DNA of 64,000 nt from assembly GCA_020466095.1 (NCBI GenBank), contig CM035809.1:5940723-6004722 (forward strand), written 5' to 3'. Source of the DNA: Chlorops oryzae (taxonomy: Eukaryota; Arthropoda; Insecta; Diptera; Chloropidae). Shown here one piece after another: positions 21,757-64,000 of the stretch. How positions within the stretch are numbered: the stretch's first letter is position 1; each line of letters starts with the position of its first letter. Position numbers and translations under genes: made by a program. The notes under the pieces were generated by a model, which worked only from the letters and a program-made list of their open reading frames with translations, did not search any database and was not told the origin of the DNA.

Positions 21757-24700
21757 ATGAGTATCTTATCTAACTTCATTTTCTTCGGCGTCGTTGCGTT
21801 TGCTGCTGTGGACGCTCATAGACATACTTTCTCCGGTAATCATGGCATTGATCATGCCTTATCTCGTCGTGCGAAACACAATCTTGGTGTTGGTCTTGTG
21901 GCGCCTGGAAATGTCTACTTAGATGCTGCCGGTTTGGGACTAAAGACTGGTTTGGAACTATTTGGTGCTGAAATCGGTGGCTCTGGATCAAACGCTGCTA
22001 AAAATTCCGCTTCTCAATGGAGTACTTCTGGATTATCTGCGAGTCAACGGACTTCATTCGGTGCATCAACAAATGGAAATTTGGCTTCTCAAGTGATTTC
22101 TGGTGTACCTACTGCTGGGGCAACATTTAATGGAAATTCGGCTTCTCAGGCACAGTCTGCTGGAGTTACCCTTGGTCAACAAGGTGCTGTTGGAGCAACC
22201 GGTAATGGATATTCGGCTTCTCAAATGATTTCCGGTGGACCTACTGTTGCTCAACAGGCTACCGTTGGAGCAACTGGTAATGGAAATTGGGCTTCTCAAA
22301 TGTATCCTGCTGGAGTTACCGCTGCTCAACAAGGTTCAGTTGGAGCAGCTGGTAATGGAATTTGGGCTTCTCAAATATATCCTGCTGGAGTTACCACTGG
22401 TCAAAGAGGTTCTATTGGAGCAACTGGTAATGGAAATTGGGCTTCTCAAATGTATCCTGCTGTAGTTACCAATGGTCAACAAGGTTCTATTGGAGCAACT
22501 GGTAATGGAAATTTGGCTTCTCAAATATATCCTGCTGGAGTTACCGCTGCTCAACAAGGTTCAGTTGGGGCGACTGGTAATGGAATTTTGGCGTCTCAAA
22601 TATATCCTGCTGGAGTTACCGCTGGTCAAAGAGGTTCTATTGGAGCAATTGGTAATGGAAATTGGGCTTCTCAATTGTATCCTGCTGGAGTTACCGCTGG
22701 TCAACAAGGTTCAGTTGGAGCAACTGGTAATGGAATTTGGGCTTCTCAAATATATCCTGTTGGAGTTACCGCTGGTCAAAGAGGTTCTATTGGAGCAACT
22801 GGTAATGGAAACTGGGCTTCTCAAATAAATCCTGCTGGAGTTACCGCTGCTCAACAAGGTTCAGTTGGGGCGATTGGTAATGGAATTTTGGCGTCTCAAA
22901 TATATCCTGCTGGAGTTACCGCTGGTCAAAGAGGTTCTATTGGAGCAATTGGTAATGGAAATTGGGCTTCTCAATTGTATCCTGCTGGAGTTACCGCTGG
23001 TCAACAAGGTTCAGTTGGAGCAACTGGTAATGGAATTTGGGCTTCTCAAATATATCCTGTTGGAGTTACCGCTGCTCAACAAGGTTCTGTTGGAGCAACT
23101 GGTAATGGAAATTTGGCTTCTCAAATATATCCTGCTGGAGTTACCGCTGCTCAACAAGGTTCAGTTGGGGCGACTGGTAATGGAATTTTGGCGTCTCAAA
23201 TATATCCTGCTGGAGTTACCGCTGGTCAAAGAGGTTCTGTTGGAGCAACTGGTAATGGAAATTTGGCTTCTCAAACGTATTCTGCTGGAGTTACCGCTGG
23301 TCAACAAGGTGCTGTTAGACCAACTGGTAGTAGAAATTCGGGTTCTCAAATGAATTATGCTGGAGCCACCACTATTCAACAAGGTGCTGTTGGAGCAACC
23401 GGTAATGCTGGCCCAATTATAGGCGCAATCATCAAACCGATCAATGTGGATGCTGGTTTAGTACCAAGCACAGGCTTGCCAATCATTTCAGCAAATACCG
23501 GTGCTTCTGGATCAAACGCTGCTCATAATTCAGCTTCTCAAATTAATTCTGCTGGAGCTATCGCTGGTCAGCAAGGTGCCGTTGGAGCAACCGGTAGTGC
23601 TGGCTCAATTAGTGGCGCAATTATTAAACCGATCAATGTGGATGCTGGCTTAGTACTAAGCACAGGCTTGCCAATAATTTCAGCAAATACCGGAGCTTCT
23701 GGATCAAACGCTGCTGAAAATTCTGCTTCCCAATTTAGTCAACAGACTTCTAACGGTGCATCAACAAATGGAAAATCGGCTTCTCAAGTGATTTCTGGTG
23801 GAGTTACCGCTGGTCAACAAGGTGCTGTTGGAGCAACTGGTAATGGAAATTCAGCTTCTCTAATTTATTCTGCTGGAGTTACCGCTGATCAACAAAGTGC
23901 CGTTGGAGCACCCGGTAATGGATATTCGGCTTCTCAAATTAAATCGGCTGGAGTTACCGCTGGTCAACAAGGAAGTGTTGGAGCAACCGGTAATGCTGGC
24001 CAAATTAGTGGCGCAATCATTAAACCGATCAATGTGGATGCTGGTTTAGTACTTAGCACAGGCTTGCCAATTATTTCAGCAAATACCGGTGCTTCTGGAT
24101 CAAACGGTGCTGAAAAATCGGCTTCCCAATGGAGTCAACAGACTTCTAACGGTGCATCCACAAATGGAAAATCGGCTTCTCAAGTGATTTCTGGTAGAGT
24201 TACCGCTGGTCAACAAGGTGCTGTTGGAGCAACTGGTAATGGAAATTCAGCTGCTCAAAATTATTCTGCTGGAGTTACCGCTGGTCAAAGAGGTTCTGTT
24301 GGAGCAACTGGTAATGGAAATTTGGCTTCTCAAACGTATTCTGCTGGAGTTACCGCTGGTCAACAAGGTGCTGTTAGACCAACTGGTAGTGAAAATTCGG
24401 GTTCTCAAATGAATTATGCTGGAGCCACCACTATTCAACAAGGTGCTGTTGGAGCAACCGGTAATGCTGGCCCAATTATAGGCGCAATCATTAAACCGAA
24501 CAATGTGGATGCTGGTTTAGTACCAAGCACAGGCTTGCCAATCATTTCAGCAAATACCGGTGCTTCTGGATCAAACGCTGCTCATAATTCAGCTTCTCAA
24601 ATTAATTCTGCTGGAGCTATCGCTGGTCAGCAAGCTGCTGTTGGAGCAACCGGTAGTGCTGGCTCAATTAGTGGCGCAATTATTAAACCGATCAATGTGG

Positions 24701-26163
24701 ATGCTGGCTTAGTACTAAGCACAGGCCTGCCAATAATTTCAGCAAATACCGGAGCTTCTGGATCAAACGCTGCTGAAAATTCTGCTTCCCAATGGAGTCA
24801 ACAGACTTCTAACGGTGCATCAACAAATGGAAAATCGGCTTCTCAAGTGATTTCTGGTGGAGTTACCGCTGGTCAACAAGGTGCTGTTGGAGCAACTGGT
24901 AATGGAAATTCAGCTTCTCAAATTTATTCTGCTGGAGTTACCGCTGATCAACAAGGTGCCGTTGGAGCACCCGGTAATGGATATTCGGCTTCTCAAATTA
25001 AATCCGCTGGAGTTACCGCTGGTCAACAAGGAAGTGTTGGAGCAACCGGTAATGCTGGCCAAATTAGTGGCGCAATCATTAAACCGATCAATGTGGATGC
25101 TGGTTTAGTACTTAGCACAGGCTTGCCAATTATTTCAGCAAATACCGGTGCTTCTGGATCAAACGGTGCTGAAAAATCGGCTTCCCAATGGAGTCAACAG
25201 ACTTCTAGCGGTGCATCCACAAATGGAAAATCGGCTTCTCAAGTGATTTCTGGTAGAGTTACCGCTGGTCAACAAGGTGCTGTTGGAGCAACTGGTAATG
25301 GAAATTCAGCTTCTCAAATTTATTCTGCTGGAGTTATCGCTGGTCAACAAGGTGCCGTTGGAGCAACTGGCAATGGAAATTCAGCTTCTCAAATTTATTC
25401 TTCTGGAGTTGCCGCTGGTCAACAAGGTGCCGTTGGAGCAACCGGTAATGGATATTCGGCTTCTAAAATTAATTCGGCTGGAGTTACCGGTGGTCAACAA
25501 GGAAGTGTTGGAGCAACCGGTAATGCTGGCCAAATTAGTGGCGCAATCATTAAACCGATCAATGTGGATGCTGGTTTAGTACTTAGCACAGGCCTGCCAA
25601 TTATTTCAGCAAATACCGGTGCTTCTGGATCAAACGGTGCTGAAAAATCTGCTTCCCAATGGAGTCGACAGACTTCTAACGTTGCATCAACAAATGGAAA
25701 ATCGGCTTCTGAAGTGATTTCTGGTGGAGTTACCGCTGGTCAACAAGGTGCTGTTAGAGCAACTGGTAGTGGAAATTCGGCTTCTCAAATGAATTCTGCT
25801 GGAGTTACCGCTGGTCAACAAAGTGCTGTTGGAGCAATTGGTAATGGATATTTGGTCTCTCGAATGAATTCTGCTGGAGCTTCTCCTGGTCAACAGGCGT
25901 CGTACGGTGGATCTGCAAGTGGTGCTTCTGGATTAAACGCTGCTCAAAATTCTGGTTCTCAATGGGGTACTCTTGGAGCATCTGCTGGTCTAAAGGCTGG
26001 AATAGGAGCAATGAATAATGGAGTGTCAACTTCTCAAAGGAATTCTGTTGAATTATCAGGTGGTCAAAGTGCCGCTTCCAGAGGGGCTTTTGTCTTAAAT
26101 TCTGATGGTGCAATATCTGCTGGTGGAGGAAGATCCAGCGTGTTACACATCAAATCGGGTTAA
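21757..26163 (+). CDS. Gene A: secreted 25-residue-repeat protein (silk/glue-like)
   Basis: Single-exon gene, 1468 residues. Residues 1-20 are a signal peptide (FIFFGVVAFAAVDA, cleavage probably before HRH). A unique N-domain of about 70 residues follows, with a dibasic SRRAKHN site and LVAPGNVYLDAAGLGL. The rest is Gly/Ala/Gln/Ser/Asn-rich repeats of 25 residues, type GVTAGQQGSVGATGNGNWAS plus QMYPA, interrupted by seven or so copies of a spacer module (GAIIKPINVDAGLVLSTGLP then IISANTGASGSN). I see no cysteine. The repeat is organised in higher-order units: a 300-bp unit (four repeats) at 22561-23160 that recurs, and a 1059-bp duplication at 23272-25389. Trp and Tyr recur at fixed positions in the first half. 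The strong promoter, signal peptide and low complexity suggest a bulk secreted structural protein such as silk, salivary glue or egg/cuticle coat; no named family is recognised. Confidence 0.88.
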   Translation: MSILSNFIFFGVVAFAAVDAHRHTFSGNHGIDHALSRRAKHNLGVGLVAPGNVYLDAAGLGLKTGLELFGAEIGGSGSNAAKNSASQWSTSGLSASQRTSFGASTNGNLASQVISGVPTAGATFNGNSASQAQSAGVTLGQQGAVGATGNGYSASQMISGGPTVAQQATVGATGNGNWASQMYPAGVTAAQQGSVGAAGNGIWASQIYPAGVTTGQRGSIGATGNGNWASQMYPAVVTNGQQGSIGATGNGNLASQIYPAGVTAAQQGSVGATGNGILASQIYPAGVTAGQRGSIGAIGNGNWASQLYPAGVTAGQQGSVGATGNGIWASQIYPVGVTAGQRGSIGATGNGNWASQINPAGVTAAQQGSVGAIGNGILASQIYPAGVTAGQRGSIGAIGNGNWASQLYPAGVTAGQQGSVGATGNGIWASQIYPVGVTAAQQGSVGATGNGNLASQIYPAGVTAAQQGSVGATGNGILASQIYPAGVTAGQRGSVGATGNGNLASQTYSAGVTAGQQGAVRPTGSRNSGSQMNYAGATTIQQGAVGATGNAGPIIGAIIKPINVDAGLVPSTGLPIISANTGASGSNAAHNSASQINSAGAIAGQQGAVGATGSAGSISGAIIKPINVDAGLVLSTGLPIISANTGASGSNAAENSASQFSQQTSNGASTNGKSASQVISGGVTAGQQGAVGATGNGNSASLIYSAGVTADQQSAVGAPGNGYSASQIKSAGVTAGQQGSVGATGNAGQISGAIIKPINVDAGLVLSTGLPIISANTGASGSNGAEKSASQWSQQTSNGASTNGKSASQVISGRVTAGQQGAVGATGNGNSAAQNYSAGVTAGQRGSVGATGNGNLASQTYSAGVTAGQQGAVRPTGSENSGSQMNYAGATTIQQGAVGATGNAGPIIGAIIKPNNVDAGLVPSTGLPIISANTGASGSNAAHNSASQINSAGAIAGQQAAVGATGSAGSISGAIIKPINVDAGLVLSTGLPIISANTGASGSNAAENSASQWSQQTSNGASTNGKSASQVISGGVTAGQQGAVGATGNGNSASQIYSAGVTADQQGAVGAPGNGYSASQIKSAGVTAGQQGSVGATGNAGQISGAIIKPINVDAGLVLSTGLPIISANTGASGSNGAEKSASQWSQQTSSGASTNGKSASQVISGRVTAGQQGAVGATGNGNSASQIYSAGVIAGQQGAVGATGNGNSASQIYSSGVAAGQQGAVGATGNGYSASKINSAGVTGGQQGSVGATGNAGQISGAIIKPINVDAGLVLSTGLPIISANTGASGSNGAEKSASQWSRQTSNVASTNGKSASEVISGGVTAGQQGAVRATGSGNSASQMNSAGVTAGQQSAVGAIGNGYLVSRMNSAGASPGQQASYGGSASGASGLNAAQNSGSQWGTLGASAGLKAGIGAMNNGVSTSQRNSVELSGGQSAASRGAFVLNSDGAISAGGGRSSVLHIKSG
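22290..23330 (+). repeat. 75-bp coding tandem repeats of gene A with 300-bp higher-order unit
   Basis: GGAGTTACC landmarks recur every 75 bp (for example 22312 and 22387). Every fourth unit is most alike: the lines starting at 22561, 22861 and 23161 share TCAGTTGGGGCGA then GGAATTTTGGCGTCTCAAAT, so the higher-order period is exactly 300 bp. This points to recent unequal exchange in four-repeat blocks. Confidence 0.88.
23272..25389 (+). repeat. 1059-bp tandem duplication inside gene A
   Basis: CAAACGTATTCTGCTGGAG occurs at 23272 and again at 24331, and the following kilobase runs in parallel, including the spacer modules, the unusual AVRPTGS and MNYAGATTIQQ variants, and the GRVTAGQQ repeat. 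The period of 1059 bp equals 353 codons, so the frame is kept. The end of the second copy is approximate. Confidence 0.8.
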
Positions 26164-26215
26164 ACTTTTTGTATTCCAGCCCTGCATTATATAATGCAAG
26201 TATATGTTTCGAAAA

Positions 26216-30732: not shown

Positions 30733-30779
30733 CGTTACTTTTGAATGTAAATGGGGGTTCGATTGTTGTTCCGGACGTG

Positions 30780-33700
30780 TAACAAGGGTATTATACGTCC
30801 AAATTTTTCGATAAAAAACCCAATACCCCAAAATGTCTTAAAACGCATCAATTTTGCAAATTTTTAGTAATTCTAAGGCAAATAGATGCTATTGCATTTA
30901 ACATTGGCAAAAAAAAAAATTTTGGAATTTTTTAACAAGGGTATTATACGTCCAAATTTTTCGATAAAAAACCCAATACCCCAAAATGTCTTAAAACGCA
31001 TCAATTTTGCAAATTTTTAGTAATTCTAAGGCAAATAGATGCTATTGCATTTAAAATTGGCAAAAAAAAATTTTTTGGAATTTTTTTAACAAGGGTATTA
31101 TACGTCCAAATTTTTTGATAAAAAACCCAATACCCCAAAATGTCTTAAAACGCATTAATTTTGCAAATTTTAATTAATTCTAAGGCAAATAGATGCTATT
31201 GCATTTAAAATTGGCAAAAAAAAATTTTTTTTTAATTTTTTTAACAAGGGTATTATAACATAGGTCCAAATTTTTCGATAAAAAACCCAATACCCCAAAA
31301 TGTCTTAACAACGCATCAATTTTGCAAATTTTTATTAATTCTAAGGCAAATAGATGCTATTGCATTTAAAATTGGCAAACAAAAATTTTTTTTGAATTTT
31401 TGTAACAAGGGTATTATACGTCCAAATTTTTCGATAAAAAACCCAATACCCCAAAATGTCTTAAAACGCATCAATTTTGCAAATTTTTGTTAATTCTAAG
31501 GCAAATAGATGCTATTGCATTTAAAATTGCGTTTTAAGACAAAATTTTGGGGTATTGAATTTTTGTTATCGAAAGGGTTTAGACGTCCATAATACCCTTG
31601 TTCGATAAAAAATTCCAATACCCCAAAATGTTTTATACGCATCAATTTTAAATGCAATAGCATCTATTTGCCTTAGATTCTAAGGCAAATAGATTTGCAA
31701 AATTGATGCGTTTTAAGACATTTTGGGGTATTTGGTTTTTTATCGAAAAATTTGGACGTATAATACCCTTGTTAAAAAAATTCCAAAAAAATTTTTTTTT
31801 GCCAATGTTAAATGCAATAGCATCTATTTGCCTTAGAATTACTAAAAATTTGCAAAATTGATGCGTTTTAAGACATTTTGGGGTATTGGGTTTTTTATCG
31901 AAAAATTTGGACGTATAATACCCTTGTTAAAAAAATTCCAAAAAAAATTTTTTTTTGCCAATTTTAAATGCAATAGCATCTATTTGCCTTAGAATTAATA
32001 AAAATTTGCAAAATTTATGCGTTTTAAGACATTTTGGGGTATTGGGTTTTTTATCGAAAAATTTGGACGTATAATACCCTTGTTAAAAAAATTCCAAAAA
32101 AATTTTTTTTTGCCAATTTTAAATGCAATAGCATCTATTTGCCTTAGAATTAATAAAAATTTGCAAAATTGATGCGTTTTAAGACATTTTGGGGTATTGG
32201 GTTTTTTATCGAAAAATTTGGACGTATAATACCCTTGTTAAAAAAATTCCAAAAATTTTTTTTTTTGCCAATTTTAAATGCAATAGCATCTATTTGCCTT
32301 AAATTATAAAAATTTGCAAAATTGATGCGTTTTAAGACATTTTGGGGTATTGGGTTTTTTATCGAAAAATTTGGACGTATAATACCCTTGTTAAAAAAAT
32401 TCCAAAAATTTTTTTTTTTGCCAATTTTAAATGCAATAGCATCTATTTGCCTTAGAATTAATAAAAATTTGCAAAATTGATGCGTTTTAAGACATTTTGG
32501 GGTATTGGGTTTTTTATCAAAAATTTGGACGTATAATACCCTTGTTAAAAAAATTCCAAAAATTTTTTTTTTGCCAATTTTAAATGCAATAGCATCTATT
32601 TGCCTTAGAATTAATAAAAATTTGCAAAATTGATGCGTTTTAAGACATTTTGGGGTATTGGTTTTTTATCGAAAAATTTGGACGTATAATACCCTTGTTA
32701 AAAAAATTCCAAAAATTTTTTTTTTGCCAATTTTAAATGCAATAGCATCTATTTGCCTTAGAATTAATAAAAATTTGCAAAATTGATGCGTTTTAAGACA
32801 TTTTGGGGTTTGGGTTTTTTATCGAAAAATTTGGACGTATAATAAACCCTTGTTAAAAAAATTCCAAAAAATTTTTTTTTTTGCCAATTTTAAATGCAAT
32901 AGCATCTATTTGCCTTAGAATTAATAAAAATTTGCAAAATTGATGCGTTTTAAGACATTTTGGGGTATTGGGTTTTTTTATCGAAAAATTTGGACGTATA
33001 ATACCCTTGTTAAAAAAATTCCAAAAAATTTTTTTTTTGCCAATTTTAAATGCAATAGCATCTATTTGCCTTAGAATTAATAAAAATTTGCAAAATTGAT
33101 GCGTTTTAAGACATTTTGGGGTATTGGGTTTTTTATCGAAAAATTTGGACGTATAATACCCTTGTTAAAAAAATTCCAAAAATTTTTTTTTTGCCAATTT
33201 TAAATGCAATAGCATCTATTTGCCTTAGAATTAATAAAAATTTGCAAATTGATGCGTTTTAAGACATTTTGGGGTTTGGGTTTTTATCGAAAAATTTTTT
33301 GAAAAATTTTTTTGCAATTTAAGCATCTATTTGCCTTAGAATTATAAAAATTTGCAAAATGATGCGTTTTAAGACATTTTGGGTATTGGGTTTTTTATCG
33401 AAAAATTGGACGTATAATACCCTTGTTAAAAAAATTCCAAAAATTTTTTTTTTGCCAATTTTAAATGCAATAGCATCTATTTGCCTTAGAATTATAAAAA
33501 TTTGCAAAATTGATGCGTTTTAAGACATTTGGGGTATTGGGTTTTTTATCGAAAAATTTGGACGTATAATACCCTTGTTAAAAAAATTCCAAAAATTTTT
33601 TTTTTGCCAATTTTAAATGCAATAGCATCTATTTGCCTTAGAATAATAAAAATTTGCAAAATTGATGCGTTTTAAGACTTTTGGGGTATTGGGTTTTTTA

Positions 33701-35621
33701 TCGAAAATTTGGACGTATAATACCCTTGTTAAAAAAATTCCAAAAATTTTTTTTTTGCCAATTTTAAATGCAATAGCATCATTTGCCTTAGAATTATAAA
33801 AATTTGCAAAATTGATGCGTTTTAAGACATTTTGGGGTATTGGTTTTTATCAAAAATTTGGACGTATAATACCCTGTTAAAAAAAATTCCAAAATTTTTT
33901 TTGCCAATTTTAATGCAATAGCATCTATTTGCCTTAGAATTAATAAAAATTGCAAAATTGATGCGTTTTAAGACATTTTGGGGTATTGGGTTTTTATCAA
34001 AATTTGGACGTATAATACCCTTGTTAAAAAAATTCCAAAATTTTTTTTGCCAATTTAAATGCAATAGCATCTATTTGCCTTAGAAATAAAAATTTGCAAA
34101 ATTGATGCGTTTTAAGACATTTTGGGGATTGGGTTTTTATCGAAAATTTGGACGTATAATACCCTTGTAAAAAAATTCCAAAAATTTTTTTGCCAATTTT
34201 AAATGCAATAGCATCTATTTGCCTTAGAATTAATAAAAATTTGCAAAATTGATGCGTTTTAAGACATTTTGGGGTATTGGTTTTTTATCGAAAAATTTGG
34301 ACGTATAATACCCTTGTTAAAAAATTCCAAAAAATTTTTTTAATTTAACAATAATCTTTTGAAATTTAAAAAAATTTTTTGCTTTTAAGCATTTTGGGGT
34401 ATTGGGTTTTTTTATAAAAATTTGGAATAATCCCTTTTAAAAAAATTAAAAATTTTTTTTTAATTTAAAGAATACTTTTTGAAATTAAAAAATTTTTTTG
34501 CCAAAAATTAAATGCTTTAAGCATTTTGGGGTTTGGGTTTTTTACAAAAAAAAATTTGGAATGCTAGCATTTTTGTTGTTTAAAAAATTTGAAAATTATC
34601 TTTTTAAAATTTTTATTTTTTTTATAAAAATTTGGATTAAATCCCTTTTAAAAAAATTTCAAAAAATTTTTTTTGAATTTTTGAATGTTTTTCCAAATTA
34701 ATAAAAATTTGCTTAGGTTTTAAAATTTTGGGGATTGGGTTTTTAGAAAAATTTGGGTATTTTTTAAAAAAATTAAAAAAATTTTTTTTAATTTTAAAAA
34801 AATTTTTGCCAAATTTAAAAATTTGCAAAATTTGCTTTTAAAATTTTGGGATTGGGTTTTTTTAAAAATTTGGGTAAAAATTTGAAAAAAAAAATTCCAA
34901 AAAATTTTTTTTTTTCCAATTTTAAATCAATGCATCTATTTGCCTTAGAATTAATAAAAATTTGCAAAATTGATGCGTTTTAAGACATTTTGGGGTATTG
35001 GGTTTTTTATCGAAAAATTTGGACGTATAATACCCTTGTTAAAAAAATTCCAAAAAATTTTTTTTTGCCAATTTTAAATGCAATAGCATCTATTTGCCTT
35101 AGAATTAATAAAAATTTGCAAAATTGATGCGTTTTAAGACATTTTGGGGTATTGGGTTTTTTATCGAAAAATTTGGACGTATAATACCCTTGTTAAAAAA
35201 ATTCCAAAAAATTTTTTTTTGCCAATTTTAAATGCAATAGCATCTATTTGCCTTAGAATTAATAAAAATTTGCAAAATTGATGCGTTTTTAAACATTTTG
35301 GGGTATTGGGTTTTTTATCGAAAAATTTGGACGTATAATACCCTTGTTAAAAAAATTCCAAAAAATTTTTTTTTGCCAATTTTAAATGCAATAGCATCTA
35401 TTTGCCTTAGAATTACTAAAAATTTGCAAAATTGATGCGTTTTAAGACATTTTGGGGTATTGGGTTTTTTATCGAAAAATTTGGACGTATAATACCCTTG
35501 TTAAAAAAATTCCAAAATTTTTTTTTTTGCCAATTTTAAATGCAATAGCATCTATTTGCCTTAGAATTAATAAAAATTTGCAAAATTGATGCGTTTTAAG
35601 ACATTTTGGGGTATTGGGTTT
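30780..35621. repeat. Satellite array, about 154-bp unit, with orientation switch
   Basis: Five units run in one direction (starts AACAAGGGTATTATACGTCC at about 30781, 30934, 31088, 31243, 31404), then about 25 run in the opposite direction from about 31690 to 35621. The junction at 31528-31690 is scrambled and holds pieces of both orientations. The unit carries GTATTATACGTCC, CCCAATACCCCAAAATG, AAACGCATCAATTTTGC and GGCAAATAGATGCTATTGC. Units outside 33.2-34.9 kb are nearly identical. Open frames in the array are not genes. Confidence 0.92.
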
Positions 35622-45078: not shown

Positions 45079-45089
45079 TTCTCCCCCCC
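45079..45089 (-). promoter_or_regulatory. BEL polypurine tract
   Basis: GGGGGGGAGAA on the minus strand directly abuts the 3' LTR, the expected site of plus-strand priming. Confidence 0.8.
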
Positions 45090-45322
45090 TTGCAGTGCTA
45101 CTGCAAACAATCATCGACAAACCATTGCGGAAACATCAGGTAAACGCATACTGTAAAGAAGGATGGGAATTGTATATGTTACAAGATTTCAAACAAATGT
45201 TAATAATAATTTAAGGATGCAATTCAGGGCTAAGGTTTATTGATATAGATATATATATATATATTTTTTTTTTTTTTTAATTTTTATGAAAGAAACAGTA
45301 ATAGCACGGAGCATTGTTAAAA

Positions 45323-46231: not shown

Positions 46232-46699
46232 AAGAGATTAAAATACGAACAAACAAAAACGCAAAACAAATGAGATGTTGATGAGAAGTTTAGGGATATG
46301 GAAGTAAAACCAGTTTAGAGATGGGTCGCTTAATAACACCCTTAGCCGTTTTAACGTTTGCTACGCGTACCCGATTATCAATGCCGCGATGCACACTTTC
46401 GACCCGACCTAAGCGTCATTCATTCGGAGGTAGATTCTCGTCTTGTATAACGACCAAATCATGAACTTCTACATCCTTTTGGGATAATTTCCATTTATTT
46501 CGTTTTTGTAGCTCTTTCAAATACTCTGATTTCCATCGTGTACAAAATTGTTGGTATATTGCTTTCATCTTTTGATATCTATTAACTAGAGACATGGGAT
46601 TACTTTCAATTTCAATTTCAGGTGAGGGAGAGAAGGGGGCAGCCAGTGAGAAAGTGACCTGGAGTCAAGCGGTTCTATATCCGTAGGATCATCTGAGAT

Positions 46700-49548
46700 A
46701 GGACTTAGAGGTCGAGAGTTAAACATGCCTCAATTCGATGAATGAATCGTGCTGAATTCTTCAAACGTGTATTTGAAATTACCTGCAAAGCGTCGAAAAT
46801 GAAATTTGAAACATTTGACCCCTGCTTCCCAAAGTCCGCCCATATGAGGAGCACCAGGTGGAATGAATTTCCATTCAATCGCTTGATGTGAATAATTACG
46901 TTCAACATCTGTCTTCATGGCTTTTATAAATTCTTTGAACTCTTTATTCAATACTCGAGAAGCCCCAACAAAATTTGTGCCATTATCGGAAAAAATTCTT
47001 GCAGGGCAGCCTCGCCGGGCTACAAATCGAGCGAAAGCGGCTAAGAAAGTGGGCGTCGTGAGGCCACTAACTGCTTCAAGATGTATTGCCTTATTAGCAA
47101 AACAAACGAACAGTGAAACGTAACCTTTCGTGATACTGCATCCTCAACCTCTGTAGCTCTTTATATCAAAAGGACCACAGAAGTCGATGCCAGTCGACGT
47201 AAATGGCCTAGCGATAGTTACTCGTTCTGGGGGCAAGGCAGCCATAATTTGGCTTTGAGATTTCTTTTTATGCACAAGGCAGACCTTACAAGAATGAATT
47301 GTTGATCTAATTAAATTCTTAGCCTTCGGAATCCAAAATTGTTGACGTATCAAACGCAACATAAGTTGATTTCCCCCATGCATACTTATGTCATGGGTAA
47401 AACGAACAAACAGTCGCGTGAATTGAGCTGAATATGGAAGAATGATCGGAAATTTTTCATTATGACTTAGTGATGTGGAACGAGCTAACCGACTTCCCAC
47501 CCGGAGAAGCCCATCAGTGTCGAGAAACGGATTTAACGTACCGAGTTTGCTTTTTGAATCAATTGGGAGGGATTTTGAAAGACGAAAATATTCACTTGCG
47601 AAATAAGCTTTTTGCGCTATTTGAATTAAGTGATTCTGTGTCGATTTAATTTCGGCACTTGTGACGCCCTTAGTGTGTGGAACTTCACACTGAATTCGTC
47701 GCTTTGTGAAACGAAAAACGTACGAAAGCACACGTAAAGCGCGAGCGAAGTTTGAAAACCTATCGATCAGATCTTCAAAATTGCTAAAAAATGCATAATT
47801 AATTTTAATAGCTTTTTGCTCTAAATTTGTGTCTAACGAGCACGAGGGATTCAATTTTGGCCATGCGGACGCTTCTAATTTTAACCATGAAGGCCCTGTC
47901 CACCATAATTGGTTCTTAACGAGATCTCGACTGTTAATCCCTCTGCTAATCATATCCGCAGGATTGTCATGCGAATCAACGTGAAACCAATTTTCGCGAT
48001 TGGTTTTTTCTAAAATTTTCGACACTCTATTTGCTACAAATGCATTCCATGCACATGGTGGCTTCTGAAGCCAAGCAAGAACAATTGTTGAATCCGTTCA
48101 ACAAAATAGAGACCTTTTATGTATTTGGAGCTCTTCGACTAATGCTTCGATCATGTCAGCTAATAGTGTGGCACCACAAAGCTCTAATCGCGGGAGGGAA
48201 ACTGATTTTACTGGTGCTACACGGGATTTTGCGAATATAAGATGAGTTGTAACACACTGTCCATTTGCAACACGAATATATACACATGCTCCGAACGCCT
48301 TTTCGGAGGCGTCACAAAACGCATGATATTGAACCACTGAGGAAGGGGAATAATCTACCCATCTTGGAATGCGAATCCTATCCATATATATTTATGGCTT
48401 TCCATAAAGTCTTTCCACACTTTTAATTGATCAGAAGGAATTTCCTGATCCCAGTCTATTTTTTGCAACCATAAATTTTGCATAAAAATTTTTGCAACTA
48501 TTACGATCGGTGAGAGCCATCCCGCAGGATCAAAAAGTTTCGCAATCATAGAGAGAATTTCTCTTTTTGTATATGAGGGTTTTTCTGAAAAGACAGAAAC
48601 CGTAAAGAAAAAATAATCAGAGTTAGCATTCCAACGAATACCTAACGTCTTGGTGGAACTACAATCTTCAATTTTGAGAAAATCTTCGTTTAAAAGATCT
48701 TTTACTGGGAGTGTATTCAAAACTTCTTTGCTATTGGAAGTCCATTTCCTCATAGTGAATCCAGCAGAATTGGTGGCCTGAATAAGCTGATCTAAAGCCT
48801 CGAGAGTTTCATTGAGAGTATGTGCACCGGCAAGAGCATCATCGACATACATCATATTTTTCAAAATATTTGACGCTAAAGGGAGTGAATGATCAACCTC
48901 TTTGGCTAATTGAATGAGCGTTCGAATTGCCAAATAAGGCGCGCAGTTGACCCCGAAGGTAACGGTGTTCAACTCATATTCTTCCAAGGGATCTAAGGGG
49001 GATTGACGAAAGATTATTCGCTGAAAGGGAGTGTGGGAGTCATGTACTCGTATTTGACGATACATTTTTTCCAAATCGCCATTGAAGACGTAGCGAAACA
49101 ATCGCCATTTCACAATTAAAATAGTGAGATCTTTTTGAAGTGAGGGACCTACATGCAGTATATCGTTAAGACTTTTTCCGCTTCTTGTTTTACAAGATGC
49201 GTTAAAAACAACACGAACTTTAGTTGTCGTACTTTCGGGCTTAAAGACAGCATGATGAGGCAAATAATAATGAGGGAATTGCTCAGAATTCGAAACCTTT
49301 TCCATGTGACCTAACTCAAGATATTCCATGACCACTTTGTCATATTGGGCCTTTAATTCGGGAGATTTTAATAATCGATATTCGTTGCGTAAAAATTGCC
49401 TCTTGGCAATTTCTTTTGACGAACCGATGTCTGTTGTGAGAGATTTAAAAGGCAGGTGTACAATATATCTACCATCAGAATCGCGGGAAGTCGTATTCAC
49501 AAATTTTTTCTTCTTCAGTGAGAAACGCTGTTTTCGGAATATCCTCAA
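46700..49548 (-). pseudogene. BEL pol: RT, RNase H, integrase, with several breaks
   Basis: The block 49548-48355 is reverse transcriptase with the YVDD catalytic motif (about residue 234) and NGDLEKMYRQI. From 48385 the frame changes into RNase H (FCDASEKAFGACV, LPRLELCGA). A TGA near 48098 interrupts RNase H; the frame resumes and continues as WFHVDSHDNPADMISRG and the integrase zinc finger (H-H-C-C, CKVC), to a second TGA at 47144-47146 next to the first catalytic Asp (GIDFCGPFD). Beyond it the frame is open through IFSDNGTNFVG and the IPPGAPHMGGLWEAG motif; near 46700-46760 small indels again break it. Lesions in total: frame changes near 49500 and 48370, two nonsense codons, and about three indels. 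This copy cannot make an intact polyprotein unless the lesions are sequencing errors. Confidence 0.85.
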
Positions 49549-51532
49549 TTTCCCAAAATCTAGCCATTTGTTTATCTAGTAAAAGTTCATTAATAGACGA
49601 CATAAACACTCGGATATTATTAGCCGCCTTTGAGAGAACCGGGTCTAAAATTATCCATCCGAAGACTGTATTTTGTGCCATGAGAGCATCACATGCATTT
49701 TTTCGAATACCATTTAGAAGAATGAAAGGATAAATATCAGCACCAATAAGAATATCAATTTCATTACTTTTCCAAAATTGACTATCCGCAAGCTTGAGAT
49801 CAGAGGGAATTTGTATTTTATTAATATCCAGAGAATATGTAGGAATATTCTCCGTTAAAAATGGAAGAACAAGTCCTGAAACTTCAATTTGAATTTGGGA
49901 ATTATTGGGAGAACCTAAAATGAAGTTAACTGACTTTACTGTTTTAGCGGATACCGTTCTATTAATTCCTGAGATTTGTGCATTAACTTTGGTTTCTGGC
50001 AATTTTAATAATTTTTGAAGACGTTCAGTAATGAAAGTGCCTTCCAATCCTGGATCAATTAAGGCTCGTGTGGTATATACAACGCCATTATGGAGAATAT
50101 TGACCATAGCTGTGCCCAGCAAGACTTGGCGAGATGAAATGGCAACATGAGATTGAACATTAACAGGGTTTTCTGCAGCAAAGCTAGTTGTCGCAGTGGC
50201 AGCTTCCGATTGTGTTTGAGAGTTCGCTACCACTTGAGTAGGATGAGATTGTCTCGAAAAAGTCGCATTGTGATTGGAGCTATGAGAGTTATTGTATGAA
50301 GGCACATTGTCACGATGCAAGAGAGTGTGATGCCTCTTATGACATTTTGAACAATTGTGAGTACTGGTGCAATTTTTAAAAATATGAGAATTGGCAAGAC
50401 AGTTAATACACAAATTTTGCTGTTTCACTTTATTGAACCGTTCCTGAATACTAAGTGCCAAAAATTTTGAACAATTTTTTGTTGCATGTTCCCGCGATGA
50501 ACACACACAACAACCTGATTTACTTGTTTTCGCTTGATATGTGTTGACTCGATTATTTTTAGACGCTTCCGACTGGCCACCTCTCAATGTAGTAGGCGTA
50601 GATTGTGATTTAGACGTAGAGGCTGAGTCAGATTTTTCACGGAAATCAGAGACTGATTCTAATGTATAGAACCGATTTGTCAAAAATGCGTCTAAATCCT
50701 TCCATTTTGGAATTTCAGATTTATCAGTGAGAGTCTGTTCCCAAAGTGCCAGACTGAGAGTTGGCAATTTTGACGACCATAAATATGTAAAAATAGCATC
50801 CCAACTTTCAACATCAATTTTATACATTTCTAATGTCGAGATACAATTATTTATCTCTCGTTGCAAGCTTTTAATACCTGCACTCGACTCATTTGCCACT
50901 GGTTTGAGATTAAATAAAACCTTGAGTTGGCTGTTTACTAGAATGCGTCGATTATCGTACCGATCTACTAAATTTTTCCATGCTACAACAAACCCATCGT
51001 GAGTTAAGGGGCATTTCTTTACGATTTCATTCGCTTCGCCGCGAGTTTTCTGAAGCAAGTGGTACAATTTTTCTACAGGGGACAAGCGAATATTCGAGAT
51101 GTAAATCGCCGTAAATAAATCCCGAAAAGTTGGCCATGATAGGTAGTCTCCTTCAAATATACTAATATCGCACGGAGGTAATTTTAATTGTGATTCGAAA
51201 TGGTCAGTGGGAACATTAAAACCAGCAAAATGACTGGTATCTGACACGTTCAAAGATTTCGAGGCAATTTCTTCCATTTCCGCCACACACTTCAGATACG
51301 CAGCATAACTTTCTTTATATTGAATTTTTAGCACATTAATTTCTTCACTGGATTTGCCCTTCTTAGTTGCATTTTGGAGAGCGCAATGATACTCTCGCTT
51401 GAGCACATCCCATAAGGATTGAAGTTCCTTTTTCTGAATTTCAATAGTGAAATTAGTGTGAGCGGCTTTAGGAAGTTCATCGAAAGATTCGACGAAATCA
51501 GTCACTTGTGTACACAACGTAGTAAACGACAT
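49475..51532 (-). CDS. BEL gag and protease region
   Basis: 685 residues. An N-terminal coiled helical region is followed by the Pao gag core (DUF1759 type) with LPPCDISIFEGDYLSWPTFR at about residues 117-136, three zinc-knuckle-like Cys/His clusters (CCVCSSREHATKNC, CINCLANSHIFKNC, CSKCHKRHHTLLH) near residues 345-410, and a DUF1758-type protease with ALIDPGLEGTFITERL and DILIGADIYPFILL. In this superfamily gag, protease and pol usually form one continuous frame. Here the frame ends at 49475, where pol continues in another frame. A repeated TTTGTGAA word lies close to the break, so a short deletion is possible. Confidence 0.88.
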   Translation of the reverse strand: MSFTTLCTQVTDFVESFDELPKAAHTNFTIEIQKKELQSLWDVLKREYHCALQNATKKGKSSEEINVLKIQYKESYAAYLKCVAEMEEIASKSLNVSDTSHFAGFNVPTDHFESQLKLPPCDISIFEGDYLSWPTFRDLFTAIYISNIRLSPVEKLYHLLQKTRGEANEIVKKCPLTHDGFVVAWKNLVDRYDNRRILVNSQLKVLFNLKPVANESSAGIKSLQREINNCISTLEMYKIDVESWDAIFTYLWSSKLPTLSLALWEQTLTDKSEIPKWKDLDAFLTNRFYTLESVSDFREKSDSASTSKSQSTPTTLRGGQSEASKNNRVNTYQAKTSKSGCCVCSSREHATKNCSKFLALSIQERFNKVKQQNLCINCLANSHIFKNCTSTHNCSKCHKRHHTLLHRDNVPSYNNSHSSNHNATFSRQSHPTQVVANSQTQSEAATATTSFAAENPVNVQSHVAISSRQVLLGTAMVNILHNGVVYTTRALIDPGLEGTFITERLQKLLKLPETKVNAQISGINRTVSAKTVKSVNFILGSPNNSQIQIEVSGLVLPFLTENIPTYSLDINKIQIPSDLKLADSQFWKSNEIDILIGADIYPFILLNGIRKNACDALMAQNTVFGWIILDPVLSKAANNIRVFMSSINELLLDKQMARFWEIEDIPKTAFLTEEEKICEYDFPRF

Positions 51533-52386
51533 TTCTATTTTATTGATTGCTGTCTTTTGCGATTAAAACTGATAAAATAATTTTATCCTTTGAGAGAAAA
51601 AGAAAAAAAATGAAGGGAAGTTCGAAATAAAATCGTGTAAAGTTTATCAAAAACAATCAAAAACTTTTTATGCGCAAAATGAGCTAGGGATACCCACTGT
51701 TCCGAGCACCGGCTGATTTTAAAATTTCACTTAACTTTCTTTGAGAGTAGTTCAATGCACTTGTCAGTGCACTCAAATTAACAAAAAACGAAATCAAAGC
51801 ACTCAAATTAACAAAAGCTAAAGCAAAACGGTTTAGCTGCGTTGCAGTAATGATAGAGCGGCTTTTCTTTGTTATTCCTCTTTACACGATTTTCTCACGA
51901 TTGGCGCTTAGGCTTCGTAGAATACGAACAGTGGCGCGCGTTGGATTCTTTGTTCGGTCTGTGATTGATTGTTGTATGTGTATGTATATTTACAGAACTT
52001 TCGCGGGTTTTTCTTTTAACGGCAAAATACCGACCTGAGATCAGAGGGAATGTACGGTTATATATATACTTTTTTTTTTTTTTTTTTTATTTGGGAATTA
52101 AGCGGCACTTTTTTATTTTATGGGTTCACAAGGAGGGGGAAATTACCAAAAAAAAACCCCAAAAAAATTTAATTGCACGCACCTGGAGTTCGATATGCTT
52201 ATAAGGTGTGATATGGATGATGTGTGTAATGAGTGTAATGTGTGTTATGTTGCTGCTGTGTTGATGATTTGAGTCCTCTCTTTTGCGAGTCGATTTAGTT
52301 CTTTGTCCGAAACCTGCAGCGAGAAAACTATTTATCAGGGATGTGACGGATATGGATGCGAAGATTCCAAATCCGGATAGGCGATA
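51533..52386 (-). other. BEL untranslated leader
   Basis: The region between primer-binding site and gag start contains a long T run (52070-52090 on the plus strand) and no ORF of note. Confidence 0.6.
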
Positions 52387-52403
52387 TCCGGCTCGAAGGA
52401 CCA
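52387..52403 (-). promoter_or_regulatory. BEL primer-binding site, tRNA-Tyr type
   Basis: TCCGGCTCGAAGGACCA on the plus strand equals the 3' end of eukaryotic tRNA-Tyr with CCA, so the element RNA is complementary to that tRNA. One base separates it from the 5' LTR. Confidence 0.85.
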
Positions 52404-52404
52404 A

Positions 52405-52793
52405 TAAATAACTCAGTTGTAAGGGGAGGGAAATCCGGAATAAGCCGAGAAATAAGAGAAAACCACCAACAATTAAATTCTGTGAATTCTATTTATCTTT
52501 ATTGATATATTGTATGGGAGAGCTTACGTGGATATTTCCGCAAGGGTTTGGTGATGATGAGAATGAGGTATATTGAGCGATGAGTAAATATGTATGTATA
52601 CTTGTAGAATTTCCGTTGCTGAGAAAAGAACGTAATATGCGTGGGAGTGTTGTAAGACAACTGACCTTGTCACGAAGCTGTTTGGCGCCATGACTTTTGC
52701 TTTCTTCTCAACATGTTGCGGAGGTCATGGTTGCATTTATCGAGGGGTCAGTCTTATACCTTGAATAAAGTTAAGCGGCTGTCCACATTAACA
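52405..52793 (-). repeat. BEL 5' LTR (element sense)
   Basis: 389 bp, identical by eye to 44690-45078. TSD CAGCC follows at 52794-52798. Confidence 0.93.
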
Positions 52794-52798
52794 CAGCC

Positions 52799-53409
52799 CT
52801 TTCACTACCACTGCCACAATACAACCCAAAGTTATAAGCATTTCACCTTGATTCAATTTTGCTTTCCCTTAGAAATAGCACTACATTGGTACTGCTATTT
52901 AAAATTTTTCACATGGTTTCAATTAAGCTAAGCATTAAATGAATGATACTTGTACGGGAAGATCCAGTGTTGCCTCTTAGCAAAAGAAATGCTTTGCGCT
53001 TATTAGAAAAAGGCACAAGAAGGGCTAAACCACGAGTTTGGATACTGAATGTCTTATATTTTTGTTTTATATTTTTGAATTTATTTGTATATTTTGTTTT
53101 CTTATTGTTCTTGTTGTAATTATTTATTTTTCTTATGAGGGATGTCACGGGCTGACGCAAATGTCTTCGCCGACGTTGTACATCTGCAAAAGAAATTTTC
53201 GTTACTTTAATCAACTTATTTATTAATGCAAGTATACAATGCAATTAATAAAAAGCTGTTCAAATTTTTAATTAAGACAAAAATAACATCTGGCTTTTTT
53301 TGCAATGCATTTGAGGAAAATACCGTAAAAGAATTTTGTATAAAAAGGCTGTTCCATTCGTTTAAAATCAGTAACATCTCTTACACTCAGATAAGATAGA
53401 CCAACGACA
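52799..53409 (+). promoter_or_regulatory. Proximal upstream region and core promoter of gene C
   Basis: Starts at the BEL border and continues the sequence that precedes gene D (CTTTCACTACCACTGCCACA). The conserved block is at 53123-53203, TATAAAAA at 53339-53346, and initiator TCAGT at 53368-53372 (31 bp to its A). Core elements are intact although the distal block was displaced. Confidence 0.78.
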
Positions 53410-55063
53410 ATGAGTATCTTATTTAACTTCATTTTCTTCGGTGTCGTTGCTTTTGCAGCTGAAAACGCTCTTGGACTAACTTTCTCCGCAAATTCTGGCA
53501 TTGATCTAGACTCATCTGCTGGTGTGAACACCAATCTTGGCTTTGGTCTTGTGGCGCCTGGAAATGTCTATGTAGATGCTGCTGGTTTGGGACTAAACGC
53601 TGGGCTGGAACTATTTGGTGCTGAAATCGGTGGCTCTGGATCAAACGCTGCTCAAAATTCCGCTTCACAATGGAGTACTTCTGGATCATCTGCTGGTCCA
53701 ACAGCCTTCTTATGCTTCATCTTCGAAGGCACAGTCGGCATATCAAGTAAATATCGCTAGGGAAACTGCTGATCAACAGGGTGCAGTTGGATCGTCTACA
53801 AATGGAAATTCAGCAAGTAGTCCTAATCTTGGGGAGACTGCTGGCCTTAGTGTTGGCGCAAGCCTTGGAATGCCCAATCTCGATGCTGTAATGGGACTAA
53901 ACACTGGACTGAAACTATCTGGTGCCGAAACCGGTGCCTTTCAACAGACTTCTAACAGTGCATCAAAAAATGGAAATTCGGCTTCTCAAGCGAGTTCTGT
54001 TGGAGTTACCGCTAGTCAACAAGGTGCTATTGGTACAGCTGCTAATGGAAATCGGGATTCTCAAGTGAATGCTGCTGGAGTTACAAGTGGTCAACAAAGT
54101 GCTGTTCGAGCAACTGGTAATGGAAATTTGGCTCCTCAAATGAATTCTGCTGGAGTTGTCGCTGGTCAACAAGCTGCTATTGGTACAGCTGCTAATGGGA
54201 ACTCGGCTTCGCAAATAAATTCTGCTGGAACTACCGCTGGTCAACAAGGTGCTGTTGGAGCAACTGGTAATAGAAATTCGGCTTTTCAAGCGAATGCTTC
54301 CGGACCTAACGCTGGTCAACAAGATGCTATTGGTACATCGGCTAATGGAAATCGGGATTCTCAAGTGAAAGCTGTTGGAGTTACTGGTGGTCAACAAGGT
54401 GCTGTTCGAGCAACTGGTAATGGAAATTTGCCTTCTCAAATGAATTCTGCTGGAATTACCGCTGGTCAACAAGGTTCTGTTGGAGCAACCGGTAATGGAA
54501 ATTCGGCTACTCAAATGTATTCTGCTGGAGTTACGGCTGGTCAACAAGGTGCTGTTGGAGCAACTGTTGATAGAAATTCGGTTTACCAAGTGAATTCCGC
54601 TGAAGTTACCGTTGGCCAACAAGGTGCTGTTGGAGCAACTGGTAATGGAAATTCGGTTTCCCAAAAGAATTCTGCTGAAGTTACCGTTGGTCAACAAGGT
54701 GCTGTTGGAGCCACCAGTAATGTGGATGCTAGTTTAGTACTAAGCACAGGCTTGCCAAAAATTTCAGAAAATAGCGATGCTTCTAGGTTTTACGCTGCTC
54801 AAAATTCTGCTTCTCAATGGGGTACTCTTGGAGCACCTGATGGTCATATGGCTGCTAATGGAGCATCGAATAATGGAATATCAACTTTTCAAAGGAATTC
54901 TGCTGAATTTTCAGCTGGTCAAGGTGCTTCTTCCAGAGGGGCTTTGGACATTAATTCTGATGCTGCAATATCTGCTGACGTACCCTTGTCGCTTTCAGTG
55001 GGAAGTTCTGCTGGTATACGCAATCGGTTTAAGCCCAGCCTGCTTGACATCAAATTGGGTTAA
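53410..55063 (+). pseudogene. Gene C: 25-residue-repeat protein with one frameshift
   Basis: The first frame (53410 to about 53697) gives signal peptide MSILFNFIFFGVVAFAA and the N-domain in the C/D/E style (no SRR site). Near 53696-53700 there is one extra base relative to gene E (GGTCCAACAG against GTTCAACAG), which shifts into a frame ending at 53760. Everything after that, about 450 codons to TAA at 55061-55063, is open in the next frame, with repeats of type AGVTAGQQGAVGATGNGNSA, and has the shared C-terminal SLSVGSSAG ending DIKLG. A short intron cannot fix it: the only GT-AG pair across the site is 9 nt. Long downstream openness suggests a recent null or a sequencing error. No Trp-type repeats are seen. 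Confidence 0.82.
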
Positions 55064-57721: not shown

Positions 57722-59310
57722 ATGAGTATCTTATCTTACTTCATTTTCTTCGGTGTCGTTGCGTTTGCAGCTGTAGACGCTCTGCGACTAACTTACCCCG
57801 CAAATCTTGGCATTGATCTAGACTTATTTGGTGGTGGGAACCCCAATCTTGGCTTTGGTCTTGTGGCGCCTAGAAATGTCAATTTAGATGCTGCTGGTTT
57901 GGGACTAAACGCTGGGCTGAAACTATTTGGTGCTGAACTCGGTGGCTCTGGATCAAACGCTGCTCATAATTCCGCTTCTCAATTGAGTACTTCTGGATAA
58001 TCTGCGAGTCAACAGACTTCATTCCGTGCATCAACAAATGGGAATCCGGCTATTCAAGCGAATTCGGCTGGAGTAGCCGTTGGTAAACAAGGTGCTAAAG
58101 CAATTTCCGCTTCTCAAGCGAATTCTGCTGGAGTTACCGCTGGTCAACATGGTCCTGTTGGAGCAACTGGTAATGGAAATTCGGTTTCCCAAATGAATTC
58201 TACTGGAGTTACCGCTGGTAAACAAGGTTCTGTTGAAGCATCCACGAATGGAAATTCGGAAATTTGAAAAATCATATGCTAATTCATTTCCAAATGTTAC
58301 ATCACGATGAATTTCAGCTTTGTTTGTTTCATTGAAATAAATTCGAAAATCTTTTGTGTTGTAATCATAACCCACAAAAATGCCTGCTTTGATTTTCTTG
58401 TCAAGTTTCCTTCTTGTTTGCTTCGGTATATGACAGAAAACTTTAAATCCAAAAACTTTAAGTTGATGGATGTCGCGAACTTTATCAAACCATAATTCCA
58501 TTGGACTTTTACCACTTTCAGAACTAGGTCCGCTGATTTTCAAGGTATAAACAACATAATGTATTGCTTCTGCCCATAAATTCTTTGATAATTCTTTTGA
58601 ATAAAGCACACTGCGAGCAAGCTCTACAATTGTTCGCATTTCTCTTTCTGCGCAACCGTTTTGTTCTGGGGTATATGGAACACTTCTTTGATGCTGGATG
58701 CCTTAATTGGATAATAGCTTTTGAACCCCTTTGTTACAGACCTCAGTTCCCTTAACACTTCGAAAAACGAGCACTAAACTACTTCGATTTTTGACCATTA
58801 TTAAAAATTTTCGTAATTTTTCTTCAGTTGCCTTATATCTTAGAAAATAAACCCATTTGTATCTTGAGAAATCATCCCTCAAAAGATGAAATTCATTCTC
58901 CGCTCTTGTTTGCTCGATTACTGCTCCTTTGAAATGTAATCCGATATTGCTTCCCATAGCAACATCCTTCGAAAACATCACTGATACCATTTTTGTATGC
59001 AATGTTGTGACATCTAAGATGTTCCGCGTAGAATACGAACTGATTAATTTAGTGAATGCTTTCAGGAATTCTGCTGAGTTATCAGCTGGTCAAGGTGCTG
59101 CTTTCAGAGGGGCTTTTGACTTTAATTTTCATGCTGCAATATCTGTAATAACGTACCCTTGTCACTTTCGGTGGGAAGTTCTGCTGGTAGACGCAATGGG
59201 TTTAAATCCAGCTCGCTGGGCATCAAATTGGATTTTATTTTTTTATATTCTAGCCTTGCAAAATAAAGTGCAAGTATGTGTTTTGAAAAAAAGTTAAGTT
59301 TGGATAATTA
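57722..59310 (+). pseudogene. Gene D: dead copy of the repeat-protein family
   Basis: The start codon, signal peptide (FIFFGVVAFAAVDA) and N-domain are readable to residue 92. A TAA then interrupts at 57998-58000, where gene A has TTA. The frame afterwards continues with family repeats (TAGQHGPVGATGNGNSVSQM) to 58259, where about 800 bp of copia-type sequence replaces the middle. Family sequence resumes near 59060 (RNSAELSAGQGAA) and is frameshifted near 59150 (CTGTAATAACG against CTGCTAACG in B). The normal stop and the AATAAA are lost. Upstream, the roughly 175-bp segment with TATA and initiator is deleted between 57700 and 57712 (CTTACTA joined to ACTGGGGATAGACC). This is an unambiguous pseudogene. 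Confidence 0.92.
58260..59060 (-). mobile_element. copia-type integrase fragment inside gene D
   Basis: Minus-strand pieces in different frames read, in order: DDFSRYKWVYFLRYKATEEK with RSVKGTEV in place of the usual Asp-Asn-Gly motif (59002-58703), then PEQNG-like sequence, and from 58639 MRTIVELARSVLYSKEL ... AIHYVVYTLKISGP ... SPMELWFDK, ending KIKAGIFVGYDYNTKDFRIY at about 58330. This is the integrase core and C-terminal part of a Ty1/copia polyprotein. No LTR, protease or RT is present. The open frame continuing left of 58260 is antisense gene D repeat. Confidence 0.85.
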
Positions 59311-62560: not shown

Positions 62561-62590
62561 TATATATTTCTTTTTATTATTCCTTTCGCT

Positions 62591-62872: not shown

Positions 62873-64000
62873 ATGAGTATCTTATTTAACTTCATTTCCT
62901 TCGGTGTCGTTGCGTTTGCAGCTGTAGACGCTCTTCGACTAACTTCCCCCCTAAATCTTGGCATTGATCTAGACTTATTTGGTGGTGGGAACACCAATCT
63001 TGGCTTTGGTCTTGTGGCGCCTGGAAATGTCAATTTAGATGCTGCTGGTTTGGGACTAAACGCTGGGTTGGATCTATTTGGTGCTGAAACCGGTGGCTCC
63101 GGATCAAACGCTGCTCAAAATTCCGCTTCACAATGGAGTACTTCTGGATCATCTGCTGTTCAACAGCCTTCTTATGGTTCATCTTTGAAGACACAGTCGG
63201 CTTATCAAGTAAATACCGGTGGAGAATCTGCTGATCAACAGGGTGCTGTTGGATGGTCTAATAATGGAAATTTGGCAAGAGACACTGCTGGCCTTAGTGT
63301 TGGCGCAAGCCTTGGATTGCCCAGTCTCGATGCTGTATTGGGACTAAACACTGGATTGACACTATCTGATGCCGAAACCAGTGCCTTTGGGTCAAACGCT
63401 GCTCAAAATTCAGCTTCTCAATGGATTACTTCTGGATGGATTCCGAGTCAACAGACTTCTAACGGTGCATCGACAAATGGAAATTCGGATTACCAAGTGA
63501 TTTCCACTGGACCTATAGCTGGTCAACAAGGTGCTATTAATGGAGCTGCTAATGGAAATTCGGCTTATCAAATGAATTCTCCTGGAGTTATCGCTGGTCA
63601 ACAAGGTGCTGTTAGAGCAACTGGTAATGGAAATTCGGCTTCTCAAATGAATTCTGCTGGAGTTACCGCAGGTCAACAGGGTGCTGTTGGAGCAACTGGT
63701 AATGGAATTTCGGCTTCTCAAATGTATTCTAGTGGTGTTACTGTTGGCCAACAAGGTGCTGTTAGAGCAACTGGTAGTGGAAATTCGGCTTCTCAAATGA
63801 ATTCTGCTGCAGTTACAGCTGGTCAACAAGGTGCTGTTGGAGCAACTGGAAATGGAAATTTGGCTTCTCAAATGTATTCTTCTGGAGTTACCGCTGGTCA
63901 ACAGGGTGCTATAGGTGGAGCTGGTAATGTCAACTCGGCTTCTCAAATGAAACCTGCTGGAGTTACCGCTGGTCAACAAGGTGCTGTTAGAGCAACTGGT
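62873..64000 (+). CDS. Gene E: 25-residue-repeat protein, truncated by window edge
   Basis: Open for 376 codons to the last base of the window. The signal peptide (MSILFNFISFGVVAFAAVDA) and N-domain (LVAPGNVNLDAAGLGLNAGL) match C and D most closely, and it keeps the unshifted version of the segment that is frameshifted in C (VQQPSYGSSLKTQSAYQV). A second SNAAQNSASQW block occurs near residue 180, followed by 25-residue repeats such as AGVTAGQQGAVGATGNGISA with Ser rather than Trp at the variable site. I see no cysteine. The gene continues past the window, and the array may too. Confidence 0.88.
   Translation, partial: MSILFNFISFGVVAFAAVDALRLTSPLNLGIDLDLFGGGNTNLGFGLVAPGNVNLDAAGLGLNAGLDLFGAETGGSGSNAAQNSASQWSTSGSSAVQQPSYGSSLKTQSAYQVNTGGESADQQGAVGWSNNGNLARDTAGLSVGASLGLPSLDAVLGLNTGLTLSDAETSAFGSNAAQNSASQWITSGWIPSQQTSNGASTNGNSDYQVISTGPIAGQQGAINGAANGNSAYQMNSPGVIAGQQGAVRATGNGNSASQMNSAGVTAGQQGAVGATGNGISASQMYSSGVTVGQQGAVRATGSGNSASQMNSAAVTAGQQGAVGATGNGNLASQMYSSGVTAGQQGAIGGAGNVNSASQMKPAGVTAGQQGAVRATG

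Follow-up and report, generated by a model that had tools for sequence, protein, structure and literature searches.

We report here a tandem array of intron-free genes which, as judged from their sequence, probably form a lineage-restricted fly family encoding a secreted, disulphide-free structural polymer. The window, that is the whole stretch of 64,000 nucleotides analysed, corresponds to C4:5940723-6004722 within the 442-Mb genome of Chlorops oryzae and contains five copies of the gene; two further copies lie to its right:

21757..26163, + strand: g1, intact, open reading frame without introns, 1468 residues
37073..39223, + strand: g2, intact, 716 residues, C-domain complete
53410..55063, + strand: g3, promoter, N-domain, repeats and C-domain kept, one surplus base near 53695
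57722..59230, + strand: g4, dead copy, 3' end still recognisable
62873..64000 and on to C4:6006501 (window-equivalent 65779), + strand: g5, intact, 968 residues
C4:6025736, right of the window: g6, intact, 972 residues
C4:6045370, right of the window: g7, open for 1443 codons, then frame lost

The first-pass annotation had proposed five paralogues on one strand sharing a start, an N-domain and a repeat. This was borne out, since N-domains start at 21757, 37073, 53410, 57722 and 62873, all on the + strand, and arrays of a 75-bp (25-residue) unit were detected by Tandem Repeats Finder in all five. Two of the five are broken. The open reading frames of g1 and g2 run uninterrupted from ATG to stop, and that of g5, which the window truncates, is complete in the genome sequence. 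The frame of g3 is broken by the extra base near 53695, and g4 is dead: its promoter (TATA and initiator) is gone, an in-frame stop is found at 58000 and a truncated SH3_retrovirus-domain fragment lies inside it. We read this fragment, from its domain match, as copia-like; g3 is perhaps a pseudogene, or else its lesion is an assembly error. The array also extends past the window, where g7 loses its frame because of a 16-bp deletion relative to g6 and where three further 3'-end matches, perhaps representing two relics, were found. Altogether the array spans 87.6 kb from the ATG of g1 to the original stop of g7 and comprises seven N-domain loci, four of them intact (g1, g2, g5 and g6) and three broken (g3, g4 and g7). 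A whole-genome search with the N-domain (E up to 1; 48 of 48 candidates scored) gave 47 matches, all of which fall in the array or in two allele-like copies and nowhere else in the 442 Mb.

The first of these allele-like copies, contig C173, is 98.0% identical to the g1 region over 7.1 kb and its open reading frame has the same length as g1. The second, at C4:3.68-3.69 Mb, resembles the g2 region piecewise over about 10 kb, with identities of about 96-99.6%; its gene, near C4:3687145-3689366, carries one additional 75-bp repeat and is frameshifted by a 1-bp coding gap. This distant stretch probably belongs to the other haplotype and was misplaced during assembly. It lies (C4:3670001-3700000) 2.3 Mb from the array and is flanked by runs of N.

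We also looked at what surrounds the genes. Two other features were delimited between them:

30778..35621, no strand: AT-rich tandem satellite with a unit of about 153 bp, between g1 and g2, its right end less regular
44690..52820, - strand: BEL/Pao retrotransposon with 422-bp LTRs at 44690-45111 and 52405-52820, 96.9% identical

The BEL/Pao element, which carries DUF1759, Peptidase_A17, RVT_1 and integrase zinc-binding domains, is inserted in the duplicated 5' flank of g3, about 0.6 kb upstream of the gene. Dispersed intergenic repeats about 90% identical to each other pair 39881-40643 with 60360-61106 and 40324-40542 with 55934-56153, and a short open stretch on the - strand (16770-17045) has a signal-peptide-like start and no Pfam match. 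To the right of the array, two mariner-type transposase-like open reading frames were spotted by eye (C4:6071599-6072423 and C4:6079694-6080759). To the left of the window, at 9 to 11 kb, the - strand carries two exons, one for an SH2 domain and one for a tyrosine kinase. When the kinase exon was compared with the PDB, EGFR was the label of the top match and C-terminal Src kinase that of the next four, and we read the two exons as a putative Csk gene. Beyond them are a gene with metaxin-type domains (GST_C_6 and Tom37) and a gene with MBD2/3 domains.

The encoded proteins share a common architecture. A hydrophobic start, judged signal-peptide-like from hydropathy and by eye, is present at all seven N-domain loci and ends in V-D-A in six of them and in E-N-A in g3. 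In g1, it is followed by the N-domain, the 25-residue repeats, spacer modules and a shortened C-domain. The 75-bp unit is present in 17.1 copies in the first array of g1 (score 1774), 12.7 in g2 (score 1367), 10.1 in g3, 1.9 in g4 and 7.0 in g5 up to the window end, and most of each protein consists of repeats and spacers. The C-domain, annotated earlier as common wherever readable, is indeed found in g1, g2, g3 and, in broken-up form, g4, the C-terminal part of g5 being beyond the window; the final part of g1 is shorter and different from that of the other copies. The twofold size range (1468 against 716 residues) was confirmed, as was the lack of cysteine, none being present in the g1, g2, g5 and g6 proteins, the g1 allele, the g3 open frame or the N-domain pieces of g3 and g4. 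Gly, Ala and Ser together amount to 46.0-49.5% of the four intact proteins; in the whole mature proteins Gly and Ala dominate, with 2.3-3.0% Pro, 6.8-7.6% Thr and 10.6-13.6% Ser.

The genes also share a simple promoter, delimited in g1 as follows:

21686..21721, + strand: g1 core promoter, TATAAAAA starting at 21686, TCAGT initiator (A at 21717), 40-nt leader

The TATA element was found at 37003 for g2, 53339 for g3 and 62806 for g5. In g1, g2, g3, g5, g6 and g7, the same TATAAAAA stands 30-31 bp 5' of the A of TCAGT, the leader measures 36-40 nt and AATAAA follows the stop within 63 nt. Within the window, the simple promoter noted at first pass is common to g1, g2, g3 and g5 and missing in g4 only. 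Compact TATA-type genes tend toward high expression. We then scanned 600 bp of the promoter region of each of these six genes for motifs. Forkhead-like motifs numbered five in g1, three in g2, two each in g3 and g5 and one each in g6 and g7 (0.78 expected), and GATA motifs three each in g1 and g2, two each in g3 and g6, one in g7 and none in g5 (1.26 expected). One octamer was present in each of g1 and g2 and none in g3, g5, g6 and g7, while TCACGT and AGGTCA were absent from all six regions. The scan points to no particular gland and, since the promoters are recent duplicates, it assigns no tissue.

The composition, the signal-peptide-like start and the compact TATA-type genes all fit the bulk extracellular polymer suggested at first pass; against it speaks the breakage of three of the seven N-domain loci, in the case of g3 perhaps through the assembly alone. 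In such a scheme, the chain start would direct the protein into the secretory pathway, and the 25-residue repeats rich in Gly, Ala, Ser, Gln and Asn, together with the spacers, would constitute most of a material laid down outside the cell, for which glue, a silk-like thread, a mating plug or an egg or cuticle coat are candidates. Chain length shifts by whole 75-bp units gained or lost, as observed between copies and between alleles.

To assess coding status, we compared gaps inside and outside the reading frames, counting internal gaps only. Between g5 and g6, the coding gaps measured 3, 15, 75 and 75 bp, 4 of 4 being multiples of three, versus 0 of 5 in the flanks. No coding gap separated g1 from its allele-like copy (one of four flank gaps was a multiple of three), and g2 differed from its copy by coding gaps of 75 and 1 bp (none of three in the flanks). 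Simulated neutral change of 9% per site introduced on average 6.6-14.2 stops per intact gene, whereas none was observed over 716-1468 codons. At 2%, which is about right for the most recent copies, the simulated genes stayed free of stops in a fraction of 0.11-0.23 for g2, g5 and g6 and of 0.03 for g1. Coding identity was 98.1% between the g1 alleles versus 98.0% and 99.6% in the flanks, 98.9% between the g2 alleles versus 99.2% and 99.5%, and 96.2% between g5 and g6 versus 98.2% and 92.0%, the 3' flank being the lower; it seldom exceeds that of the flanks, this last flank being the exception. Between repeat units dN/dS was about 0.84 with no third-position excess, in a set of 128 units (35 from g1, 12 from g2, 22 each from g5 and g6 and 37 from g7; g3 absent) from which 24-residue variants and poorly fitting units had been removed and in which some units are spacer pieces in bad register. 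The repeats themselves are weakly constrained: frame and composition are preserved and the exact repeat sequence is not. Several ratios for the whole N-domain or C-domain exceed 1, within subfamily B (g3, g5, g6 and g7; subfamily A comprises g1 and g2, and g4 was left out) and in the C-domain, on few changes. An array of decaying repeats devoid of protein function, held open by chance and recent duplication, would account for the breakage of g3, g4 and g7 and the 3'-end relics, for a repeat dN/dS near 1 and for stop-free frames that are not rare under 2% neutral change. Nevertheless, gaps preserve the frame, not one stop is seen at subfamily-level divergence, the start and residues 42-92 show constraint when the two subfamilies are compared and the promoter is conserved, which makes decay very improbable. 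Altogether, the frame and substitution patterns support the array as a coding family.

Next, relatives were sought. The first-pass annotation had recognised no family and proposed searching with the N-domain alone. In a collection of 5.8 billion proteins, residues 1-110 of P0002 drew 1505 candidates at E up to 1 and no homologue. Full-length P0002 at E up to 0.01, with scoring of the 7989 candidates that had the most words in common with it, gave none either. As this search requires shared 5-residue words and a length of 0.55-1.75 times the query, distant relatives may escape it. As a control, the BEL/Pao open reading frame matched 179 proteins in the same collection; among the 120 listed, 97 were named flies (including Rhagoletis, Bactrocera, Zeugodacus, Eurosta, Musca, Lucilia and Drosophila), one was a moth and 22 had no name, the best of those listed being from Rhagoletis at 46% identity. 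The collection therefore includes flies. The four intact proteins (P0001 and P0002 from the window, g5 and g6) had no Pfam match above cut-off, and P0002, g5 and g6 had none at all up to E 0.1. For P0001, a 15-residue stretch scored 24.4 bits with a family of phage tail proteins, below the cut-off of 27, and was taken as chance. No match was obtained for six sequences in NCBIfam, a prokaryote-oriented library, or for P0002 in the PDB up to E 10, so that on all these counts the absence of a recognised family was upheld. Pattern searches returned three stretches from a viral contig collection and 595 from a genome contig collection, none of them a relative; Rfam at the gathering threshold and a tRNA scan returned nothing, and a literature search with the family's peptide strings found no match.

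We also modelled the repeats with AlphaFold2. Eight repeats gave three strands per 25 residues at a mean pLDDT of 55.4 and a pTM of 0.51, and the whole 716-residue protein a pLDDT of 34.5 and a pTM of 0.33; the second alignment used included the g3 frame from an upstream TTG, the first residues of which are out of frame. The three strands per repeat could suggest an ice-binding protein or another beta-solenoid, with 25-residue rungs forming a flat binding face. With this mean pLDDT, a best fold match at E 0.19 and nothing at E 0.001 or better, and with random repeats likewise drawn as solenoids by AlphaFold2 according to PMC11795689, such a protein appears extremely improbable. Low-confidence beta-solenoids being a known AlphaFold2 artefact, we claim no fold.

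We then asked how replacements are distributed along the N-domain. Between subfamilies A and B, pN/pS was 0.20 for residues 1-20, 2.40 for residues 21-41 and 0.35 for residues 42-92. Within B, the ratios of 0.91 for residues 1-20 and 0.59 for residues 42-92 indicate weak constraint, and any two copies differed on average by 7.7 replacements in residues 21-41, with no synonymous change. Similarly, g1 and g2 gave 0.00 and 0.29 for the outer blocks and five replacements without any synonymous change for residues 21-41. The enrichment reached p 0.003-0.035 by Fisher's test and p 0.002-0.014 by window permutation in four contrast sets that overlap and one of which contains the dead copy g4, the block and its length having been picked after viewing the alignment and the permutation covering all windows of that one length. 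Because the block was seen before testing, the hotspot is good, non-final evidence of selection. By these ratios, constraint between the subfamilies is seen in the putative signal peptide and in residues 42-92. Residues 21-41, the predicted start of the mature protein, diversify between these more constrained blocks, through either selection or locally relaxed constraint, a hotspot that the first-pass annotation did not mention. The family is thus fast-evolving, as first described, but its divergence is not uniform.

This pattern allows several readings. The proteins could be a secreted ligand, a salivary effector or a mucus-like factor in which the N-terminus is active and the repeats are a spacer, as the hotspot and the weak constraint on the repeats might suggest; however, the greater part of each protein is repeat and spacer, open for up to 1468 codons, and conservation extends to residues 42-92 and to the C-domain, so that we find this quite unlikely. 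They could also be seminal fluid or mating-plug proteins with an N-terminus diversified by sexual conflict, which overlaps with a structural polymer and adds a tissue and a cause. The replacement hotspot, the copy turnover and the fact that our searches found no relative in other flies would agree with this, yet the composition suits many secreted materials equally and we regard it as rather unlikely. Within the structural polymer reading that we prefer, a more specific proposal is possible, if on balance doubtful: from the sequence features, the array may encode an independently evolved silk- or adhesive-like polymer of one fly lineage, free of cysteine and built on a 25-residue repeat unmet elsewhere, its N-terminus positively selected and the other terminal-domain parts kept, possibly with paralogue-specific assembly or recognition tags. 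If made in bulk, the polymer would represent a new repeat chemistry for fly secretion, achieved without disulphides, and the effect of repeat number and of a selected N-terminal tag on a secreted material would become addressable. The small tandem array supplies a series of alleles and paralogues within one species.

Finally, we compared the array with known secretions. Insect silk fibroins and sericins are repeat-built, rich in Gly, Ala and Ser, and secreted; the Chlorops proteins share this build and richness, with more Gln and Asn than is usual there, and the searches above gave no homologue. The silk of hilarine dance flies is made in a silk organ and drawn into fibre; an independently evolved fly silk of this sort, with a sequence of its own, could resemble the Chlorops array, and no paper on its sequence was among the best 8 of 10 matches of a literature search. 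In contrast to the cuticle, chorion and peritrophin families recognised by Pfam, the Chlorops proteins have no domain above cut-off, a comparison that covers the families with a Pfam model. The closest described kind is that of fast-evolving repetitive secretion proteins such as the glue of the late larval Drosophila salivary gland. According to PMC6352337, the glue proteins (Sgs1/3/7/8/Eig71Ee, Sgs4 and Sgs5) have a signal peptide, a variable repeat number, conserved C-termini and a rapid turnover; their repeats are rich in Pro, Thr and Ser, Sgs4, Sgs7 and Sgs8 are cysteine-rich, Sgs4 is intronless, and in the Sgs1/3/7/8/Eig71Ee family the signal peptide is interrupted by a phase-1 intron. 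Compared by these descriptions, the Chlorops genes differ from the glue in their low Pro content and dominant Gly and Ala, from Sgs4, Sgs7 and Sgs8 in having no cysteine, and from the Sgs1/3/7/8/Eig71Ee family in that the g1 and g2 frames lack the signal-peptide intron. Like the glue genes, they combine a signal-peptide-like start, variable repeats and a conserved end and, like Sgs4, have an intronless frame. While we do not claim membership of such a family, the Chlorops array may, by this analogy, work like a glue or a silk.
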